From: an uncultured Eubacteriales bacterium
GTDB taxonomy: Bacteria; Bacillota; Clostridia; Christensenellales; CAG-138
Direction of reading: 5' to 3'
Assembly: GCA_902761365.1 (NCBI GenBank)
Contig: CACWJZ010000019.1
Location: 1-58,002, forward strand
DNA: 58,002 bases
Shown here: piece by piece, positions 3,339 to 57,816 of the stretch
How positions within the stretch are numbered: the first letter of the stretch is position 1
How the letters are laid out: each line of letters starts with the position of its first letter
The notes under the pieces: model-generated
Seen by the model: only the letters and a program-made list of their open reading frames with translations
Told to the model about the DNA's origin: nothing
The model's database searches: none
Position numbers and translations under genes: made by a program

Positions 3339-4386
3339 CACCGCCCGGGAACGGCTCGCCGCCCTGCAGGAACGGGGCAAGGCCACCGTTCTTTCCATAG
3401 AGACCTCCTGCGACGAGACCGCCGCCGCCCTGGTGAAAAACGGGCGGCAGGTGCTCAGCAACGCCGTCTACACCCAGATCCCCATCCACCGGCGCTTCGG
3501 CGGCGTGGTGCCGGAGCTGGCCAGCCGCAACCATGTGGACCAGGTGGGGCCCGTGGTGGAGAGCGCCCTCACAGACGCGGGGCTGACCCTTGAGGACGTG
3601 GATGCCATCGCCGTCACCGGCGGGCCGGGTCTGGTGGGCGCCCTGCTGGTGGGCGTGAGCTACGCCAAGGGCTTGGCCTTCGCCACCGGCAAGCCCCTGG
3701 TCAATACCCACCACATCCTGGGCCATATCGCCGCCAACTACCTGACCTTCTCCGATCTGGTCCCCCCCTTCACCTGCCTTGTGGCCTCCGGGGGCCACAG
3801 CCACATCATCGAGGTGTCGGACTATGACCGGTGCCTGCTCCTGGGCCGGACCCGGGACGACGCCGCCGGCGAGGCCTACGACAAGGTGGCCCGGGTGCTG
3901 GAGCTCCCCTATCCCGGCGGGCCGGAGCTGGAGAAGCTGGCCCAGGGAGGGGACCCCCACGCCATCCGCTTCCACTCCGCCTTCAACGAGGGGGAAGGCT
4001 TCGACATGAGCTTTTCCGGCCTCAAGACCGCGGTCATCAACCACCTGAGCAATGCCCGTCAACGGGGCGAAACCGTTGACCGGGCCGACGTGGCTGCCAG
4101 CTTCCAGTACGCCGTGAACACGATCCTCAGCGACAAGGCCGTCCGGGCCGCCCAGCAGAACGGCCACGGCGTCCTGGCCCTGGCCGGGGGCGTGTCCGCC
4201 AACAAAAACCTGCGGCAGATGCTGGCCGAGAAGGCCGCCCGGCGGGGCATCCGCTTCTGTTGTCCCGATTTCAAGTACTGCACCGACAACGGCGCCATGA
4301 TCGGCTCCGCCGCCTTCTACCTGCTGATGAAGGGGCATATCGCGGATCTTTCCTTCAACGCCGTGCCGTATTTGCCCATTGCGTAA
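3310..4386 (+). CDS. tsaD: tRNA N6-adenosine threonylcarbamoyltransferase TsaD
   Basis: TsaD transfers the threonylcarbamoyl group to A37 of ANN-decoding tRNAs together with TsaB and TsaE, neither of which is in this window. The 358-residue protein has the ASKHA N-terminus (SIETSCDETAAA), the metal-binding H-x3-H pair at His135/His139 (HILGH), ASGGHSH, and GGVSANKNLR in the C-terminal lobe. AGGAG five bases before the ATG at 3310 supports this start, inside the end of the DUF1461 gene. ATG 3325 is an alternative and would trim five residues (MTTTT). Confidence 0.93.
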   Translation: MTTTTMSYFDTARERLAALQERGKATVLSIETSCDETAAALVKNGRQVLSNAVYTQIPIHRRFGGVVPELASRNHVDQVGPVVESALTDAGLTLEDVDAIAVTGGPGLVGALLVGVSYAKGLAFATGKPLVNTHHILGHIAANYLTFSDLVPPFTCLVASGGHSHIIEVSDYDRCLLLGRTRDDAAGEAYDKVARVLELPYPGGPELEKLAQGGDPHAIRFHSAFNEGEGFDMSFSGLKTAVINHLSNARQRGETVDRADVAASFQYAVNTILSDKAVRAAQQNGHGVLALAGGVSANKNLRQMLAEKAARRGIRFCCPDFKYCTDNGAMIGSAAFYLLMKGHIADLSFNAVPYLPIA

Positions 4387-5265: not shown

Positions 5266-5783
5266 AACACAAGGAATTGTATTTTGAATTGGAGGACCGG
5301 GAGTGGCCCTTCACCTACACAAGCCACGATCGGCAGATCGTTCGGGCCATCGTCTTCGACGACGACGGCTGGCTCTACTTCACCCGGGCCAGCCGGGACG
5401 ACCATTTCGGCAAGGCCACCCTCATCGAAACCTCCGGCGGCGGCGTGGAGCCGGAGGAGGACCTGCTCACGGCCATCCATCGGGAGCTGAAGGAGGAGTT
5501 GGGGGCTGAGGTGGAGGTGCTCTGCCCCATCGGCCTGGTCAGCGACTACTACAATCTCATCCACCGCCACAACCTGAACCACTACTACCTCTGCCGCGCC
5601 ACGTCCTTCGGGGAGAAGCACCTGATGCCCGACGAGGTGGAACAATTCCACCTCTCCACCCTGCGCCTCACCTACGACGAGGCTGTCCAGGAGTACCGGC
5701 GCCTATCCTGCACCCCCATCGGCCGGCTCATCGCCGCCCGGGAGCTGCCGGTGCTGGAGAGAGCGAAGGAGATTTTGAGATAG
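5262..5783 (+). CDS. NUDIX hydrolase
   Basis: A 173-residue protein with a complete NUDIX box: GGVEPEE, seven residues, then RELKEELG, matching G-x5-E-x7-REU-x-EE-x-GU. It should hydrolyse a nucleoside diphosphate linked to some moiety; the substrate is not predictable. The start at 5262 overlaps the GNAT stop (ATGA); a longer frame upstream is only the GNAT gene read out of frame. It is the last gene of the run that began at 591 and is followed at once by a double-hairpin repeat. Confidence 0.87.
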   Translation: MKHKELYFELEDREWPFTYTSHDRQIVRAIVFDDDGWLYFTRASRDDHFGKATLIETSGGGVEPEEDLLTAIHRELKEELGAEVEVLCPIGLVSDYYNLIHRHNLNHYYLCRATSFGEKHLMPDEVEQFHLSTLRLTYDEAVQEYRRLSCTPIGRLIAARELPVLERAKEILR

Positions 5784-5800
5784 TTTTTTCTTTCATTTTT

Positions 5801-5945
5801 TCTTTTGCCGCTTTTTCTCTTTCTACAAAGAGAAAAAGCGGTGGAAAAAGAGAAACTTAAGAAGCAGTATTACTACAGTGCCGAAATCTACTTATCTTCT
5901 TAAAAGTTCTTTTTGGTCCTTTTTCTTTCAAGAAAAAGGACCAAA
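5801..5945 (+). repeat. double-hairpin intergenic element, copy A1
   Basis: Two hairpins. The first spans 5808-5841 (CCGCTTTTTCTCTTT / AAAGAGAAAAAGCGG) and the second 5915-5942 (GGTCCTTTTTCTT / AAGAAAAAGGACC). Between them CTTAAGAAG (5856-5864) faces CTTCTTAA (5896-5903). The element fills the space between the NUDIX stop and the glycosyltransferase start. Other copies share the T/A core but have different, still complementary outer stem bases. Confidence 0.8.
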
Positions 5946-5984
5946 CTTTCAATAAACACCTCTAAAAAAGTCCATACTCCCATC

Positions 5985-7484
5985 ATGCAGGACTATGACC
6001 GCTTTGTGGCCCTGGCCACGCTGACGCCCCAGGCCGCCGCCGCACAAAGACGGGCGGTGTTTTTCGCTGCGCCCCGGTTCGCCGTGATCGCCACGAGCCG
6101 AGGGCGGGCGCTGGGGGCCTCTTTACGAGAGCAAACCTATACGAGATATGTCCTCTCCGACCTGTCCCGATGGGTCGAGGCGGACTACTACCTGTTTTTG
6201 CCGGGCGAAGGCCGGCTCCGTCCCGACGCCCTGTTCCGTTTGGCCATGGCCGCGGGCGGCGGGCGGGAGCTCCTGTACGCGGACGAGGACGCCCTGGTCC
6301 GGGGCCGCCGCTGTGACCCCCGATTCAAGCCCGCCTTCAGCCCCCACACCCTGCTGAGCTACGACTATCTGGGCCGAGGCGCCTGCGTCTCCCGAGCGCT
6401 CCTTCGGGCAGTGGGCGGCTGGCCGGGGCCGGACGCGGCCCGCCGGTACGCCTTCTGGCTCCGGGCCGTTCCCCTGGCGGAGCGGATAGAGCACCTGCCC
6501 TTCATGCTGTTCAGCCTGCCCCCGGAGAGGCCCTGCGCCGACCCGTCGCCCCTGAAGGCGGCCCTGGGCCGGGACGCGCTGGTCCTGCCCGGGCCCGTGT
6601 CGGGGACCTTCCTGCCCCGGTTCGGGGTGAAGGGGGAGCCCCTGGTCTCCGTCATCGCCACGGACGAAAACGGCTCCGACGCCCTGAAAAGCACCCTGCT
6701 CGCCGTAGAGCAGCGGATGCAGCTCCCCCGCTATGAGCTGGTGGTGGCCGCGGGGCGCCCCCTGACCCCCTTCCTTCGGGCCCTGCAGGGTAGCGGCGTC
6801 ACCGTCCTGTCCCGCCCCGACGCCAGCCCCGCCGCCCTGTGGAACGACGGTGCCCGGGCCGCCCGGGGCCGGTTTTTGCTGTTCCTGCACGGGGGCTGCG
6901 TGCCCCTGTCGCCGGACTTCGGCCAGCGGCTCACGGAGTGGGCGGACCTGCCGGATGTAGGCGCGGTAGGTCCCCTGATACTGGATAGCGAAGACCGCAT
7001 CCTGTCCCTGGGCACGGCGGTGGGCCTGTTCGGGGGCCTGGGCTCCCCTGGGTTTGGCCTGTCCCCTAGGGAACTGCACCAGGCCTGCCCCACCCTGCTC
7101 TGCCCCCGGGACGTGTCCGGTCTGCCCCCCTGGGCGCTGGCGATCCGCCGGGACCGGTTCCTGGCCGCCGGCGGCTTTGACCCCTCATTGGGCCACCTGG
7201 GCTACGCCGAGGAGCTGTGTTTGCGCCTCCGTCGCCGGGACCTGTTCTCCCTGTGCGCGCCCTCCGTCCGGTTCCGGCTCCTCGCCCTGACGCCCTCCGC
7301 CCCCGACGCCCTGAACCTCCGGCGCTGCCGGGACGCCTTCTACCCCCTGCTGCGCCAGGGAGACCCCTTCTACAACCCCAATCTCAGCATGACCAGCCCC
7401 CTGCCCCGGCCGGCCCTGCCGCCCCGACCAGCCCTGCTCCGTCACGCCCCGGACCGCTGGCCGCCATATTTTTCTGTACCTTGA
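5985..7484 (+). CDS. GT2-like glycosyltransferase with an incomplete first domain
   Basis: About 499 residues. The first 200 contain LLYADED, a CDPRFKP-FSP run and SYDYLGRGACVSRALL-x-VGGW, the pattern of rhamnosyl/glycosyl transferases of family GT2, but the usual N-terminal nucleotide-binding half is shortened. From about residue 220 a second GT2-like domain follows (PLVSVIATDENG, ARGRFLLFLHGG, GYAEELCLRLRR). The likely role is transfer of sugar to cell-surface polysaccharide. The start at 5985 is a choice: the open frame extends to 5913, but those codons lie inside the A1 hairpin. No good ribosome binding site is visible. Confidence 0.7.
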   Translation: MQDYDRFVALATLTPQAAAAQRRAVFFAAPRFAVIATSRGRALGASLREQTYTRYVLSDLSRWVEADYYLFLPGEGRLRPDALFRLAMAAGGGRELLYADEDALVRGRRCDPRFKPAFSPHTLLSYDYLGRGACVSRALLRAVGGWPGPDAARRYAFWLRAVPLAERIEHLPFMLFSLPPERPCADPSPLKAALGRDALVLPGPVSGTFLPRFGVKGEPLVSVIATDENGSDALKSTLLAVEQRMQLPRYELVVAAGRPLTPFLRALQGSGVTVLSRPDASPAALWNDGARAARGRFLLFLHGGCVPLSPDFGQRLTEWADLPDVGAVGPLILDSEDRILSLGTAVGLFGGLGSPGFGLSPRELHQACPTLLCPRDVSGLPPWALAIRRDRFLAAGGFDPSLGHLGYAEELCLRLRRRDLFSLCAPSVRFRLLALTPSAPDALNLRRCRDAFYPLLRQGDPFYNPNLSMTSPLPRPALPPRPALLRHAPDRWPPYFSVP

Positions 7485-7537: not shown

Positions 7538-7610
7538 GCTCGGTTCGTCTAGTGGCCTAGGACACCGCCCTCTCACGGCGGTAACAGGGGTTCGACTCCC
7601 CTACCAACGC
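7538..7610 (+). tRNA. tRNA-Glu (anticodon CUC), acceptor stem disturbed
   Basis: The D arm (GTCTAGTGGCCTAGGAC), anticodon arm CCGCC-CTCTCAC-GGCGG with anticodon CTC, and T arm AGGGG-TTCGACT-CCCCT are all intact and typical of bacterial tRNA-Glu. The 7-base acceptor strands are GCTCGGT and ACCAACG: positions 1-72 (G/G), 2-71 (C/C) and 4-69 (C/A) do not pair, and no CCA is encoded. A T-run follows as terminator. It may be a damaged copy left by integration of an element, since an integrase remnant abuts it. Confidence 0.75.
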
Positions 7611-13268: not shown

Positions 13269-13294
13269 ACCCGCGCCCGACCCCGGGCGCGGGT
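13269..13294 (+). terminator. strong GC hairpin after the DUF975 gene
   Basis: ACCCGCGCCCG (13269-13279) pairs with CGGGCGCGGGT (13284-13294), 11 base pairs around ACCC. No U-run follows, so termination efficiency is uncertain. Confidence 0.5.
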
Positions 13295-13334
13295 GTATAC
13301 CCTGATTGCCTATCCCCAGAGAAGAGGTACCCCT

Positions 13335-14228
13335 ATGTTCGGAAGACGACCCGACGGCCGCCGGATCGAGAAGATCGATCCCATCATGAAGATCACTCCC
13401 TACATCATGCCCGAGCGCAGCGACGCCCAGGTGTATTTGCGGCACCGGACGGACATGGAGCGCATGTCCGCCTACATCCGGGCCCAAGCCGAGAAGGGGC
13501 AGCGGGTCAGCCACATGCAGATCATCATGGCGGCCTACGTGCGGGCCGTGAGCAACAACCCCGCCGTGAACCGGTTCATCATGAACAAGCAGCTCTTCGC
13601 CCGGAACAACTGTTCGGCGGCCTTCACCATTTTGAAGGTGCCCCACCAGCCGGACCAGGGCGAGGCGGTGGTGAAGATCAAGTTCGACCTCACCGACACC
13701 CTCTACGACGTGCGGGACCGCATGGACGCCGCCGTCAGTATCGCCCGAGGCGAGCAGGAGCAGGGGCCCGGGTTCATCGATCGGCTCCTGTCCTTCGTGT
13801 TTGCGGTGCCGGGCCTCGCCACGGTGATCGTGGGACTGGTGAAGTTTATGGACCGGTACGGCATCTGCCCCCGGTTCCTCATCGAGGAGCTGCCCTTCCA
13901 CGTGGGCATGTACATCACCAACACCGCGTCCATCGGCCTCCATGAGGTGAACCACCACATCTACAACTTCGGCAACGTGGGCCTGTTCTTCGGCATGGGC
14001 ACCTCCGAGCGGGTGGCCGTGGAGGAGAACGGGACCATCCGCCTGAAGCGGTTCTTGCCCATCGGCATCACCGCGGACGAGCGGGTCTGCTCCGGCGCCC
14101 ACTACGCCCGGTTTTTCGCCGACATGCGCAAGTATCTGGACCACCCGGAGCTCTTAGAGCAGCCCCCGGCCGCGGTCCGCTTCGACGAGGGCATGGCGTA
14201 CCACGAGCCCAAGCCGAAAAAGGCATGA
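13335..14228 (+). CDS. stand-alone E2-like acyltransferase (CAT fold) lacking the catalytic His
   Basis: 297 residues resembling the catalytic domain of 2-oxoacid dehydrogenase E2 subunits or chloramphenicol acetyltransferase, without lipoyl or E1-binding domains. The C-terminal motif usually read as DHRxxDGA is here D248-E-R-V-C-S-G-A: the catalytic His is Glu249 and the Asp is Ser253. It is therefore probably not an ordinary acyltransferase. A paralogue lies at 34171. The start at 13335 follows AGAAGAGG; a GTG at 13293 in the same frame sits in the preceding hairpin and is rejected. Confidence 0.7.
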   Translation: MFGRRPDGRRIEKIDPIMKITPYIMPERSDAQVYLRHRTDMERMSAYIRAQAEKGQRVSHMQIIMAAYVRAVSNNPAVNRFIMNKQLFARNNCSAAFTILKVPHQPDQGEAVVKIKFDLTDTLYDVRDRMDAAVSIARGEQEQGPGFIDRLLSFVFAVPGLATVIVGLVKFMDRYGICPRFLIEELPFHVGMYITNTASIGLHEVNHHIYNFGNVGLFFGMGTSERVAVEENGTIRLKRFLPIGITADERVCSGAHYARFFADMRKYLDHPELLEQPPAAVRFDEGMAYHEPKPKKA

Positions 14229-14232
14229 CCTT

Positions 14233-14268
14233 CGCACCTTTTCCGTTTCGGTGAAAAGAAAAGATGCG
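14233..14268 (+). repeat. single family-A hairpin, degenerate copy A7
   Basis: CGCACCTTTTC and GAAAAGATGCG pair with one mismatch, followed by CGAAAAAGAAAAGCAC, the same tail seen after the first hairpin of copy A6. It lies between the E2-like gene and the metal-resistance promoter. Confidence 0.6.
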
Positions 14269-14348
14269 CGAAAAAGAAAAGCACAGGATGATACGGGAAA
14301 CCGATGCGGGAAGCCAGGATGCTTTCCGCATTTTTTTGTATGTTTGGA

Positions 14349-14969: not shown

Positions 14970-15121
14970 TCTTTTGCCGCTTTTTCTCTTCAGTGAAGAG
15001 GAAAAAGCGGCGGAAAAAGAGAAGCTTAAGAAGAGGTCTTAGATAAGGCCTCTATGACAGTATTCTTTTTGTGCTTTTCTTTTTGGGCGACTTTTGCTTT
15101 TCACTGAAAAGAAAAAGTCGC
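14970..15121 (+). repeat. double-hairpin intergenic element, copy A2
   Basis: The first hairpin spans 14976-15011 (GCCGCTTTTTCTCTTC / GAAGAGGAAAAAGCGGC) and the second 15087-15121 (GCGAC...GTCGC on the same T/A core). CTTAAGAAG follows the first hairpin at 15025. This copy sits inside the metal-resistance unit, and its second hairpin ends six bases before the ATPase start codon. Confidence 0.8.
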
Positions 15122-17022: not shown

Positions 17023-17171
17023 GTTCCTTTTCTCTTCAGGTGAAGAGGAAAAAAGGAACCGAAAAAAGAGAAGCCTATTGGCATAAAAAAATGAAGCGCG
17101 GAAAAGTTTTATCCTTCCTGCGCTTCTCTTTTTGGGCGGCTTTTCTCTTCTGCCTGAAGAGAAAAAGCCGC
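17023..17171 (+). repeat. double-hairpin intergenic element, copy A3
   Basis: The hairpins are at 17023-17059 (GTTCC...GGAAC) and 17136-17171 (GCGGC...GCCGC), with a further GAAGCGC / GCGCTTC pair at about 17093-17127. It lies between the convergent ATPase and phosphodiesterase genes. It shares CTTTTTGGGCG before the second hairpin with copy A2. Confidence 0.8.
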
Positions 17172-18239: not shown

Positions 18240-18252
18240 ACTCTTCTTCTGT

Positions 18253-18386
18253 GCTCCTTTTTCTCTTCGGTGAAGAGAAAAAGGAGCCGAAAAAAGAGAA
18301 GCTTAAGAAACTATTCTTGTTTCTCCCTTATACTGACTTATCTTCTTAAGTTCTTTTCGCGAGCCTTTTCCTTCAAGAAAAGGCTC
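18253..18386 (+). repeat. double-hairpin intergenic element, copy A4
   Basis: The hairpins are at 18253-18287 (GCTCC...GGAGC) and 18361-18386 (GAGCC...GGCTC). CTTAAGAA (18302) faces CTTCTTAAG (18342-18350). The second hairpin ends 20 bases before the next start codon, just ahead of its AAAGGAG. Confidence 0.85.
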
Positions 18387-20450: not shown

Positions 20451-20478
20451 TGCACCTTTTCTTGCAAGAAAAGGTGCA
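20451..20478 (+). repeat. single perfect family-A hairpin, copy A5
   Basis: A 28-base perfect palindrome with the family core CTTTTCTTG/CAAGAAAAG and outer TGCAC/GTGCA. Only the second-hairpin half of the element is present. It lies between two co-directional hydrolase genes. Confidence 0.8.
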
Positions 20479-20512
20479 GCCAAAAGAACTGTCAGAAGGG
20501 ATCGAAGGATTC

Positions 20513-25291: not shown

Positions 25292-25346
25292 AAACATGAT
25301 CCAGGCTGCACCCAATGAGATCCACAGGGCGAAGCTTGCAATCAAA

Positions 25347-25512
25347 ACATAGCTCTCCGCAAACGCGACAGTCATCCGGATCTTCTCCGGATGCCCAGAC
25401 CGGACGCGGCAACCGCCCGATCTTCGGCAGCGGCCCCTTTCGCTGCGGGCAACGGTTTTGCCTGACCTTGTGTGCCCGCGCTACTGTTGACAGCTGCGCC
25501 TCTATCCTTTCA
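25347..25512 (-). promoter_or_regulatory. lysine riboswitch (L box)
   Basis: Reading the minus strand, the conserved L-box landmarks appear in order: GATAGAGGCGC, AGTA, GAAAGGGG, GCCGAAG, and a closing GAGAGCTAT whose CTAT pairs with the opening ATAG (P1). The spacing between landmarks fits the lysine aptamer, and the downstream gene is lysA. Lysine binding should shut off expression, by the attenuator hairpin or by hiding the ribosome binding site. Confidence 0.88.
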
Positions 25513-35396: not shown

Positions 35397-35532
35397 GCCG
35401 CTTTTTCTTTTCAGTGAAAAGAAAAAGCGGCGCAAAAAGAAAAGCACAAGAAGAAAACAGGAAAGTACGGCGCAAGCCATACTTCCCAAATAAAGTTCTT
35501 TCGGCTGCCCCCTTTCTTTCAAGAAAGGGGGC
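35397..35532 (+). repeat. double-hairpin intergenic element, copy A6
   Basis: The hairpins are at 35397-35431 (GCCGC...GCGGC) and 35507-35532 (GCCCCC...GGGGGC on the CTTTC core). Between them AAGTACGGC-gcaa-GCCATACTT forms a third stem. Here the CTTAAGAAG motif after hairpin 1 is replaced by GCACAAGAAG. It lies between convergent genes. Confidence 0.8.
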
Positions 35533-40991: not shown

Positions 40992-42212
40992 TTACACCCG
41001 GAACAGGGCCTTGAGGGCCTCTTCGTTGAGCTTGGACCCGATCACGCAGATGCGGCCCGTGAAGGCGGCGGGGCCCGTGCGCACCTCGTGCTCCTCGGGC
41101 ACGTAGTCGTAGTGGATCCACTGGCCGTCGGCGCCGGGGACGACGCCCTTGGCCCGCAGGATGGCTCCGTAGGCGGCCGCGTCGTCCAGCTTCACGAGGA
41201 TGCTCTCGATCTCGTCCCTGGAATACTTGTTGGCCGTCTCCACGCCCCAGCTGGTGAACACCTCGTCGGCGTCGTGGCCGTGGTGGTGATGGTGATGGTG
41301 CTCGTGCTCGTCCTCATCATCGTCATCATGATGATGGTGGTGGCACTCGGGATCGTCGCACTCCTCGTCATCGTCATGATGATGGTGGTGATGATGCTCG
41401 TGCTCCTCCTCATCGTCATCATCGTCGCGATGATGATGGTGATGATGCTCGTGCTCGTCCTCGTCGTCATCGTCGTCGTGGTGATGGTGGCATTCGCACT
41501 CGGGATCGTCGCACTCCTCGCCGTCCTCATGGTGATGATGGTGGTGATGGTGCTCGTGCTCCTCCTCTTCCTCCTTGCGGGCCATCTCGGAAAGCTCCCG
41601 CAGGGCCGCCTCCAGGGTGTCCTTGCGCTCCATGGCGGACAGGATGGTCTTGCCGGAGAGCTCGGTCCAGGGGGTGGTGATGATGACCGCGTTGGGGTTG
41701 TGCTCCCTGAGCAGGGCCAGGACCTCACTGAGCTTCGTTTCGTTCACGTCCTGGGTCCGGCTCAGGATGATGGCGTTGGCGCTCTCCACCTGGTTGTTGA
41801 AGAATTCGCCGAAGTTCTTCATGTATACCTTGGCCTTCTTGGCGTCCACCACGGTGGTGAAGGCGTTGAGCTGGATGTCATGGGAGTCGATGCGCTCCAC
41901 GGCGCCGATCACGTCGGAGAGCTTGCCCACGCCCGAGGGCTCGATGAGGATGCGGTCCGGGGCGTACTCGCTGAGGACCTTCTTCAGCGCCCGGCCGAAG
42001 TCGCCCACCAAAGAGCAGCAGATGCAGCCGGAGTTCATCTCGTTCACCTGGATGCCCGCGTCCTGCATGAAAGCGCCGTCGATGCCGATCTCGCCGAACT
42101 CGTTCTCGATCAGCACCAGCTTTTCATCCTGGTATGCCTCTGCGATCAGCTTCTTGATGAGGGTGGTTTTCCCCGCGCCCAAAAAGCCGGAGAAGATGTC
42201 TATTTTCGTCAT
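40992..42212 (-). CDS. COG0523 G3E GTPase metallochaperone with long His/Asp-rich insert
   Basis: 406 residues. P-loop GFLGAGKTT (9-17), ENEFGEIG, the metal-binding CxCC motif in GCICCS (62-67) and EPSG switch region give a clear COG0523 protein. Residues 213-315 are an insert of His runs separated by Asp/Glu runs, with two ECDDPEC motifs; about 45 of these residues are His. The C-terminal CobW domain (AAAYGAILRAKGVVPG) follows. It likely stores or delivers Zn2+ or another transition metal. GGAGG precedes the start. Confidence 0.88.
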   Translation of the reverse strand: MTKIDIFSGFLGAGKTTLIKKLIAEAYQDEKLVLIENEFGEIGIDGAFMQDAGIQVNEMNSGCICCSLVGDFGRALKKVLSEYAPDRILIEPSGVGKLSDVIGAVERIDSHDIQLNAFTTVVDAKKAKVYMKNFGEFFNNQVESANAIILSRTQDVNETKLSEVLALLREHNPNAVIITTPWTELSGKTILSAMERKDTLEAALRELSEMARKEEEEEHEHHHHHHHHEDGEECDDPECECHHHHDDDDDEDEHEHHHHHHRDDDDDEEEHEHHHHHHHDDDEECDDPECHHHHHDDDDEDEHEHHHHHHHGHDADEVFTSWGVETANKYSRDEIESILVKLDDAAAYGAILRAKGVVPGADGQWIHYDYVPEEHEVRTGPAAFTGRICVIGSKLNEEALKALFRV

Positions 42213-45128: not shown

Positions 45129-45162
45129 GCGACTGTTTCTTTTCGATGAAAGAAGGAGTCGC
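45129..45162 (+). repeat. single family-A hairpin, divergent copy A8
   Basis: GCGACT and AGTCGC close a stem over TTTCTTT-cgat-GAAAGAA, then CCCAAAAGAC. It lies between tldE and the transporter gene. Farther on, GGGAGGG and CCCTCCC around 45200-45226 form another stem before the ribosome binding site. Confidence 0.6.
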
Positions 45163-46403: not shown

Positions 46404-46445
46404 CAGGCTGTCGAAAAAGGCGGCAGACCATTTGCGGCAAAACTG
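46404..46445 (+). repeat. 42-base dispersed repeat, copy C1
   Basis: The strand reads CAGGCTGTCGAAAAAGGCGG, then CAGACCATTTGCGGCAAAA and CTG. It matches 57775-57816 on the opposite strand at 37 of 42 bases. It follows the transporter stop by two bases. Confidence 0.75.
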
Positions 46446-57774: not shown

Positions 57775-57816
57775 CAAGTTTGCTGCAAATGGTCTGCCAC
57801 CTTTTTCGACAGACTG
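57775..57816 (-). repeat. 42-base dispersed repeat, copy C2
   Basis: On the minus strand CAGTCTGTCGAAAAAGGTGG, then CAGACCATTTGCAGCAAACT and TG; it is the inverted relative of 46404-46445. Confidence 0.75.

Follow-up and report, generated by a model that had tools for sequence, protein, structure and literature searches.

Bacterial repeats with the potential to fold into intrastrand triplexes have been described as the BoxC/PIT/TM_ECO family of Escherichia coli (Holder et al., 2015; PMC4666352), and the formation and role of such triplexes in bacterial cells is an open question. Repetitive extragenic palindromic sequences (REPs), as outlined in parts of Di Nocera et al. (2013; PMC3733652), are short palindromes that often form inverted dimers and, between convergent genes, mostly lie <20 bp from the 3' ends; REPs in tandem pairs are found close to the 3' end of the upstream gene. 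Here we describe a family of intergenic hairpin elements found in a 58,002-nt stretch of DNA from an uncultured Eubacteriales bacterium of the CAG-138 lineage (contig CACWJZ010000019.1, positions 1 to 58,002; hereafter the window), which is one contig of a 2.32 Mb metagenome-assembled genome (MAG; 116 contigs, 69% complete). The sequence flanking each hairpin co-varies with the arms of that hairpin, and on balance we favour the reading that this is a new, A/T-rich element at gene ends in which three strands co-vary and an intrastrand triplex would form. No description of the hairpin family was found among the titles and abstract beginnings searched.

Each unit consists of a hairpin, in which the 5' arm is pyrimidine and the 3' arm purine, a basal clamp of 4-6 bp, a short spacer and a flank of ∼11 nt, which lies on the side facing the partner hairpin and mirrors the pyrimidine arm. 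In an example with the flank at the 5' side, the flank CTTCTCTTTTT is followed by a short spacer, a clamp such as GCGGC, the arm TTTTTCTCTTC, the loop, the arm GAAGAGAAAAAG and the clamp again. The flank is the parallel complement of the purine arm, which is the register of a pyrimidine-motif triplex, and the units carry the three tracts on one strand in triplex register by which an intrastrand-triplex motif is recognized. A first listing of 85 MAG hairpins, for which the better-scoring of the two sides was taken as the flank side, contained 41 flanks that were exact (at most 12 positions compared) and a further 20 that were off by one.

The covariation of arm and flank was counted on pyrimidine-arm hairpins picked by base pairing alone. 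Of the 534 hairpin-strands in this set, a 5' flank was readable in 276, of which 236 were type 1. One of three flank words was present in 172 of the 236 (125 distinct units); the other 64 were dropped and are believed to represent mostly outer sides, where a hairpin was read on the opposite strand. The arm word predicted the flank word in 120 of the 125 distinct units, compared to a mean of 42.6 and a maximum of 61 in 10,000 shuffles, and the arm/flank word pairs were GAAGAG/CTTCTC, AAAGAG/TTTCTC and GAAAAG/CTTTTC. The A-run of the arm and the T-run of the flank were of equal length in 31/38, 33/38 and 47/49 units of the type-1 word classes and in 21/22 units of type 2, which have a word of their own (132/147 in total), and each class was at the limit of 10,000 shuffles. 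Word and run length both matched in 109 of 125 units, which fell into nine word-by-length classes, and type 2 added three further classes. Rare variants fitted as well (GAAGAGAAGAAAG with CTTCTCTTCTTTC, and AAAGAGAAAAGG with TTTCTCTTTTCC).

The mutual information between the arm and its own flank was 1.28 bits (P 2e-4). Between a flank and the flank of the partner hairpin it was 0.20 (P 0.16), or 0.03 (P 0.92) in type 1+2 elements; in the 77 elements parsed (of 84) the flank does not track its partner flank, and an origin of the mirror in a Watson-Crick stem between the two flanks is unsupported. The fraction of in-register triplets was 0.988, a value inflated by the selection of three words, versus at most 0.60 when the flank was slid along the arm, and exact matches numbered 116 of 125 versus none. 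An antiparallel third strand scored lower than the parallel strand of the same unit (7.84 vs 8.55).

A covariance model of a single hairpin (R1) was built from a MAFFT alignment that places the pairs partly out of register; it therefore served as a finder only, and covariation was counted directly. In the 2.3 Mb MAG, R1 gave at least 150 strand matches at E ≤ 1 (the best 150 of 813 candidates scored) and at least 122 at E ≤ 1e-4, totals in which many hairpins are counted once per strand. A strict two-arm pattern was present at 16 strand-places in the genome, compared to 0 for the reversed pattern. Given these two results, chance is excluded as the origin of the hairpin family. The first-pass annotation of the window had noted that the outer stem bases vary and remain complementary, and the counts bear this out: 327 of 360 outer cells were Watson-Crick pairs, versus a mean of 209 and a maximum of 242 when the 3' halves were re-dealt (103 R1 matches in 1.12 Mb of the genus, 96 distinct, 90 parsed), although the count leans somewhat to paired matches as R1 includes base pairs. 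Ten distinct fully paired outer words were found among the 90 parsed hairpins. The selection on a folded structure that had been proposed on these grounds is now more strongly supported, because the third strand co-varies too.

The covariance-model search that the annotation had proposed was run on the genome and its relatives and showed that the family is real, high-copy and genus-wide. All 12 genomes of this genus of the gut had matches. So did one of 13 genomes that represent the family's other genera, although its four matches were weak (two of these loci were examined and show a mirror-like flank), and none of 16 genomes from other families of the order. Loci L098 and L110 (G019, another genus of the family) show two hairpins that have longer arms and are accompanied by a mirror-like flank; the L098 feature lies 6 nt after a putative TGA stop, and a T-tailed hairpin follows. 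In 400 kb of unselected sequence from one genome of the genus (G005), 65 hairpins reached the stem strength of the family, 38 of them with a pyrimidine and seven with a purine 5' arm. The elements were unevenly spread in this sequence: none was present in G005:C2:1-139000 (L290-L296), and 38 such hairpins occurred in the next 261 kb (the first at 139.9 kb). The element-free 139 kb is possibly an island or the result of a replication-related bias.

Two hairpins with inward-facing flanks make up a double element. We distinguished 84 double elements, of which 66 combined type 1 with type 2, 15 were type 1+1 and three were type 2+2; they measured 122-164 bp from hairpin to hairpin, with a hairpin spacing of 61-77 nt in 29 pairs. 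Their placement relative to genes was determined for 49 elements in 806 kb from four genomes, using home-made gene calls. None of the 49 was located inside a gene. The gaps that contained them were convergent in 17, tandem in 29 and divergent in three cases, versus 44, 176 and 67 when every intergenic gap ≥100 bp long is counted, so that convergent gaps were enriched (P 0.002) and divergent gaps depleted (P 0.004). Of the 46 elements in convergent or tandem gaps, 41 started ≤24 nt from a stop codon; both hairpins did so in eight of ten double elements between convergent genes, and a lone hairpin in a tandem gap was closer to the stop in 13 of 17. The earlier description, in which hairpin 2 precedes the next start, therefore holds for tandem genes and fails for convergent ones. 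The order of hairpin types along transcription was unbiased (6 vs 4, and two more with type 1 twice).

At orthologous sites an element was found in some species and a plain hairpin or nothing in others, and at some of these sites the sister species carry plain GC-rich hairpins. The site before a P-type ATPase gene held a unit in all six species compared; these units fell into three word/clamp classes, and the flank matched within each class. Two genomes carried wholly different elements at one orthologous site (G004 37947 and G009 101213), where the surrounding flanks were 94/85% identical, and six hairpins with differences between species at orthologous positions had, as judged by eye, a flank that fitted the new arm. 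Because the presence, class and identity of elements differ between species at the same sites, units are exchanged or rebuilt as wholes. The statement that the similarity is not due to recent copying was only half right: the units form a copied family with a few word classes, and at orthologous sites whole elements differ. At the site that corresponds to Element C of the window (see below), an insert of ∼100 nt interrupts one hairpin in G003 (L267, about 3500-3690).

The search for a TnpA-REP-like transposase that had also been proposed gave no Y1_Tnp match in the 69% complete MAG and one match each in two of the 12 genus genomes (G005:C5:39319 and G002:C48:8047; L350, L351), both Y1 transposases that are IS200-like by length and match. 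No family hairpin was present in the 4.0 and 2.7 kb around these two matches, several of the genus genomes being incomplete, and mobilization by a RAYT or TnpA-REP enzyme is accordingly unsupported. No target-site duplication was visible in the outer flanks. Carriage by plasmids or phages found no support either: Element A had no plasmid match and Element B no phage match (one query each), and none of seven pattern matches in viral contigs had the 5' arm (best 7/12).

A pattern scan of genome contigs identified the same architecture at no fewer than 54 loci labelled Candidatus Gastranaerophilales (phylum Candidatus Melainabacteria), many of them with further hairpins built alike. Because the mirror was part of the pattern for one arm word, the test was confined to other words. 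Among the matches listed, 10 of 31 hairpin strands with other arm words had an exact flank, compared to a mean of 2.7 and a maximum of seven in 500 swaps; each hairpin is counted here on both strands, only one of which is able to match. The bases immediately 5' of the flank could also pair with the loop: the longest pairing run had a mean of 3.74, versus 2.94 (maximum 3.15) with shuffled bases and 3.41 with swapped loops (P 0.001). A GCG:CGC loop pairing was present in 47 of 61 distinct units, a number that includes related copies, and compensated pairings were found in other units (TTACG:CGTAA, AGTG:CACT, GCCG:CGGC and GCC:GGC); 11 of the 14 units that lack GCG:CGC had a longest run of 2-3 pairs, which is the chance level. 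These counts also refer to the matches listed. A pairing of this kind is what a groove-bound strand that reaches the loop would allow, as in an H-type pseudoknot. Several of the loci contain a larger element of ∼350-550 bp with two triplex-type hairpins and a very palindromic interior (L158:4850-5270, L163, L174, L166, L126, L162 and L194). The copies at L158, L163 and L174 are bounded by inverted ACATAATATATGTTAT, or a sequence near it, containing ATAA-N6-TTAT, which we take to resemble dif-like sites. No literature on repeats or transposable elements of Gastranaerophilales was found.

All 13 hairpins listed for the window by the first-pass annotation were present within ±1 base, and its count of at least eight places corresponds to eight loci, five double (5808-5943, 14976-15121, 17023-17171, 18252-18386 and 35397-35532) and three single (14234, 20452 and 45129). 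The hairpins at 14234, 14976, 15087, 17023, 17136 and 45129 contain a mismatch or bulge, and a stricter hairpin finder recovered only six of the 13. Element A starts with a type-1 hairpin (5808..5841) 24 nt past the stop of a NUDIX gene. The purine flank of this hairpin lies on the plus strand at 5845..5855, and its complement TTTCTCTTTTT is a fitting third strand for the arm AAAGAGAAAAA (12/12 with the next base included). The centre (5856..5906) pairs CTTAAGAAG with CTTCTTAA and leads to the plus-strand pyrimidine flank TTCTTTTT (5907..5914), which faces the arm AAGAAAAA of the type-2 hairpin (5914..5943); the next plus-strand gene is located downstream. This second flank was assigned by reading; it was missed by the scripted search, which required a spacer (6/10 elsewhere).

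Element B (14976..15121) is located between two plus-strand genes, upstream of a P-type ATPase, and consists of a type-1 hairpin (14976-15011), a flank (15014-15024), the centre, a second flank (15074-15086) and another type-1 hairpin (15087-15121). Element C (17023..17171) lies between convergent genes for an ATPase and a metallophosphatase and has type-1 hairpins at 17023-17059 and 17136-17171 with flanks at 17062-17073 and 17123-17135. Element D (18252..18386) combines a type-1 hairpin (18252-18288; flank 18290-18301) with a type-2 hairpin (18361-18386; flank 18351-18358). The same combination is found in Element E (35397..35532), between convergent genes, with the type-1 hairpin at 35397-35431 (flank 35434-35444) and the type-2 hairpin, with 3 A in its arm, at 35507-35532 (flank 35496-35502, 3 T). 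The single loci comprise an imperfect type-1 hairpin with an incompletely matching flank (14234..14284) after the stop of an open reading frame at 13293-14228, a type-2 hairpin with flank (20452..20491) that by reading has 4 A in the arm and 4 T in the flank on the reverse strand, and a degenerate family hairpin (45129..45162) with a poor flank match and a model E-value of 0.8. The pairing of CTTAAGAAG with CTTCTTAAG around the centre, which had been ascribed to full copies, was recognizable as a near-pair in two of the five double elements (5808 and 18252) and absent from the remaining ones; CTTAAGAAG has no partner at 14976, and the other double copies carry different centres.

At the gathering score, an Rfam scan of the window detected only a large signal recognition particle RNA cut by the contig end (57856-58002, minus strand), a lysine riboswitch (25342-25512, minus strand) and a tRNA (7542-7605, plus strand), with no match at the hairpin elements; six further loci had no match at this score either. 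Positions 5700-6000 gave 34 sub-threshold matches, chiefly to miRNA models. Two other features were also seen in the window: 38-nt inverted copies, 92% complementary, of a separate repeat (CAGGCTGTCGAAAAAGGCGGCAGACC...) at 46404-46441 and 57779-57816, and a tandem-like GATGATGGTGATG region at 41263-41568 with seven overlapping, related 153-nt copies, which may encode a His-rich stretch on the minus strand.

In the reading that we favour, the flank would be the third strand, placed in the major groove through T.A-T and C+.G-C triplets and running parallel to the purine arm; the opposite strand would form a purine motif. From the covariation of arm and flank we infer that the triple helix forms and that selection keeps it, and the placement of the elements suggests a function. 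The element would work in DNA, or strand-symmetrically, at the ends of transcription units, perhaps as a boundary that together with the central hairpin stalls or ends polymerases arriving from either side; this part is less sure. The family would also spread and be exchanged within the genome. Two points favour DNA over RNA: where a hairpin adjoins the stop of a gene, the mRNA of that gene carries the purine flank, which according to PMC4666352 is unable to form an RNA triplex, and the type order relative to transcription is unbiased.

Several observations weigh against this reading. C+.G-C triplets require protonation. Related copies are included in the counts, so units are not independent events, and arm and flank would also stay together if units were copied whole; what argues for maintenance is therefore how many different classes match, together with the occurrence in two phyla. 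A first crude scoring showed a smaller excess (own flank 8.55/11, swapped 7.93 with a maximum of 8.16), and in a wide parse only 70 of 671 hairpin strands had exact flanks and 168 were within one, with a denominator inflated by both strands and overlapping matches and with 13 exact words that include mutual truncations. The restriction to three words (172 of 236 kept) under-counts decayed flanks, and the units at orthologous sites 300282 and 55601 are decayed and have lost the flank/arm match. A terminator scan of the window gave 12 matches versus 12.2 in shuffles, and a further total of one versus 0.8. For the E. coli motif, the available portions of PMC4666352 report folding in vitro, footprinting in vivo without a triplex signal, and earlier work in which no promoter or terminator activity was found.

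Three other explanations were weighed, none of which excludes the others or the favoured reading. The flanks could be the A/T-tracts of a central terminator, the whole being an ordinary bidirectional terminator with the outer hairpins as decoration. The centres do fold better than shuffles (mean z -2.2, 59 of 79 below -1; 79 of 84 parsed, some including part of the flank), a terminator-like stem is present on the minus strand in the centre of Element E (35460-35487), a T-tailed stem lies behind the lone hairpin at 14234 (14303-14338), a weak 5-pair match occurs in Element C (17121-17138), and the plain GC-rich hairpins of sister species at shared sites point the same way. But a T-tract needs no letter-by-letter match with the neighbouring arm, the scan called nothing at the centres of Elements A, B and D with totals at the shuffle level, and the triplex-type hairpins themselves have no T-run behind, whereas an intrinsic terminator is a GC-rich hairpin with an immediate T-run. 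We regard this as the least probable of the explanations, and as quite improbable. An RNA device that acts on read-through or antisense transcripts, formed when transcription of the strand with the pyrimidine flank 5' yields a triple helix in the major groove (given a sufficiently long loop, an H-type pseudoknot), seems unlikely, if less so. The loop pairing in Gastranaerophilales, above shuffled and swapped levels and with compensated variants, speaks for it, as does the clamp of 4-6 bp crossed by ∼2 nt, which suits the crossing of the deep groove in A-form helices. Its weakness is that the loops in the genus of the window are mostly 3-5 nt and leave no space for such pairing, that the RNA of the adjoining gene carries the purine flank, also at the lone stop-side hairpins (13/17 tandem), and that most Gastranaerophilales units without GCG:CGC pair at chance level in a set that includes related copies.

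A REPIN- or MITE-like mobile repeat that is non-autonomous and serves no host function, in which the mirror flank was fixed in the module and inherited on copying and the arms are kept by hairpin-templated repair, appears no likelier than the RNA device. It would account for the high copy number within one genus only, the asymmetric family with type-1 and type-2 ends, the presence or absence of elements between species and the wholly different elements at one orthologous site; REPs, moreover, lie at an equal distance from stops in the parts of PMC3733652 consulted. Hairpin-templated repair is, however, unable to copy an arm into a parallel-complementary flank, and all twelve word-by-length classes have matching members. 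There was also no associated transposase in the single family searched (PF01797), and neither a target duplication nor an autonomous copy was noticed in the stretches examined. The reading with a selected triplex at gene ends extends to a broader proposal, which we offer only tentatively: that bacteria of at least two phyla may keep such triplexes at many sites, with the third strand selected by letter and length, with lineage-specific sequences, pseudoknot-locked in one lineage, and with a triplex that forms in the cell and acts where transcription units end. With dozens of copies in each genome, twelve word-by-length classes that match and covariation across three strands, the family provides comparative evidence beyond that in PMC4666352. 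Natural matched and mismatched units are available for direct tests, and the search rule of mirror flank plus clamp has uncovered the same design in another phylum.

Compared with BoxC, as described in the excerpts of PMC4666352, the units share a pyrimidine arm, a purine arm and a mirrored third tract on one strand (class II there; the opposite strand has its third tract 5', the class IV order). Both are intergenic and form inverted pairs, of type A with type B in E. coli and of type 1 with type 2 in 66 of 84 elements here, a likeness of layout only. BoxC differs in being G/C-rich, with one conserved consensus and 23 copies in MG1655, versus A/T-rich and variable, co-varying words here; it lies more often upstream of open reading frames and without a trend in distance, versus just past stop codons here, and in the present units a clamp stem separates third strand and arm. 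The BoxC/TM_ECO consensus CCCTCNCCC..GGGNGAGGG..GGGNGAGGG was not present in our units, the arm words of which are A-rich, and neither 'covari' nor 'compensatory' appears as a word stem in the main text of PMC4666352. With REPs and REPINs the elements share palindromes near gene 3' ends and inverted dimers, in the placement pattern given in the consulted parts of PMC3733652. They differ from these in the tags (GTAG in 0 of 226 units, CGTC in three of 226, within the 14 nt before the arm and on the flank side only), in the lack of an associated RAYT in the MAG and the 12 genus genomes, several of which are incomplete, and in the third-strand flank. The Gastranaerophilales units, in which loop pairing would tether the groove strand, resemble an H-type pseudoknot with a major-groove triplex as in telomerase RNA; they differ in that no ligand or protein is known, that they are high-copy repeats and that both DNA strands are symmetric, and the loops in the genus of the window are too short to leave room for the pairing. 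In layout the elements are intrastrand-triplex repeats and in placement REP dimers, but no BoxC consensus, REP tag or RAYT goes with them.
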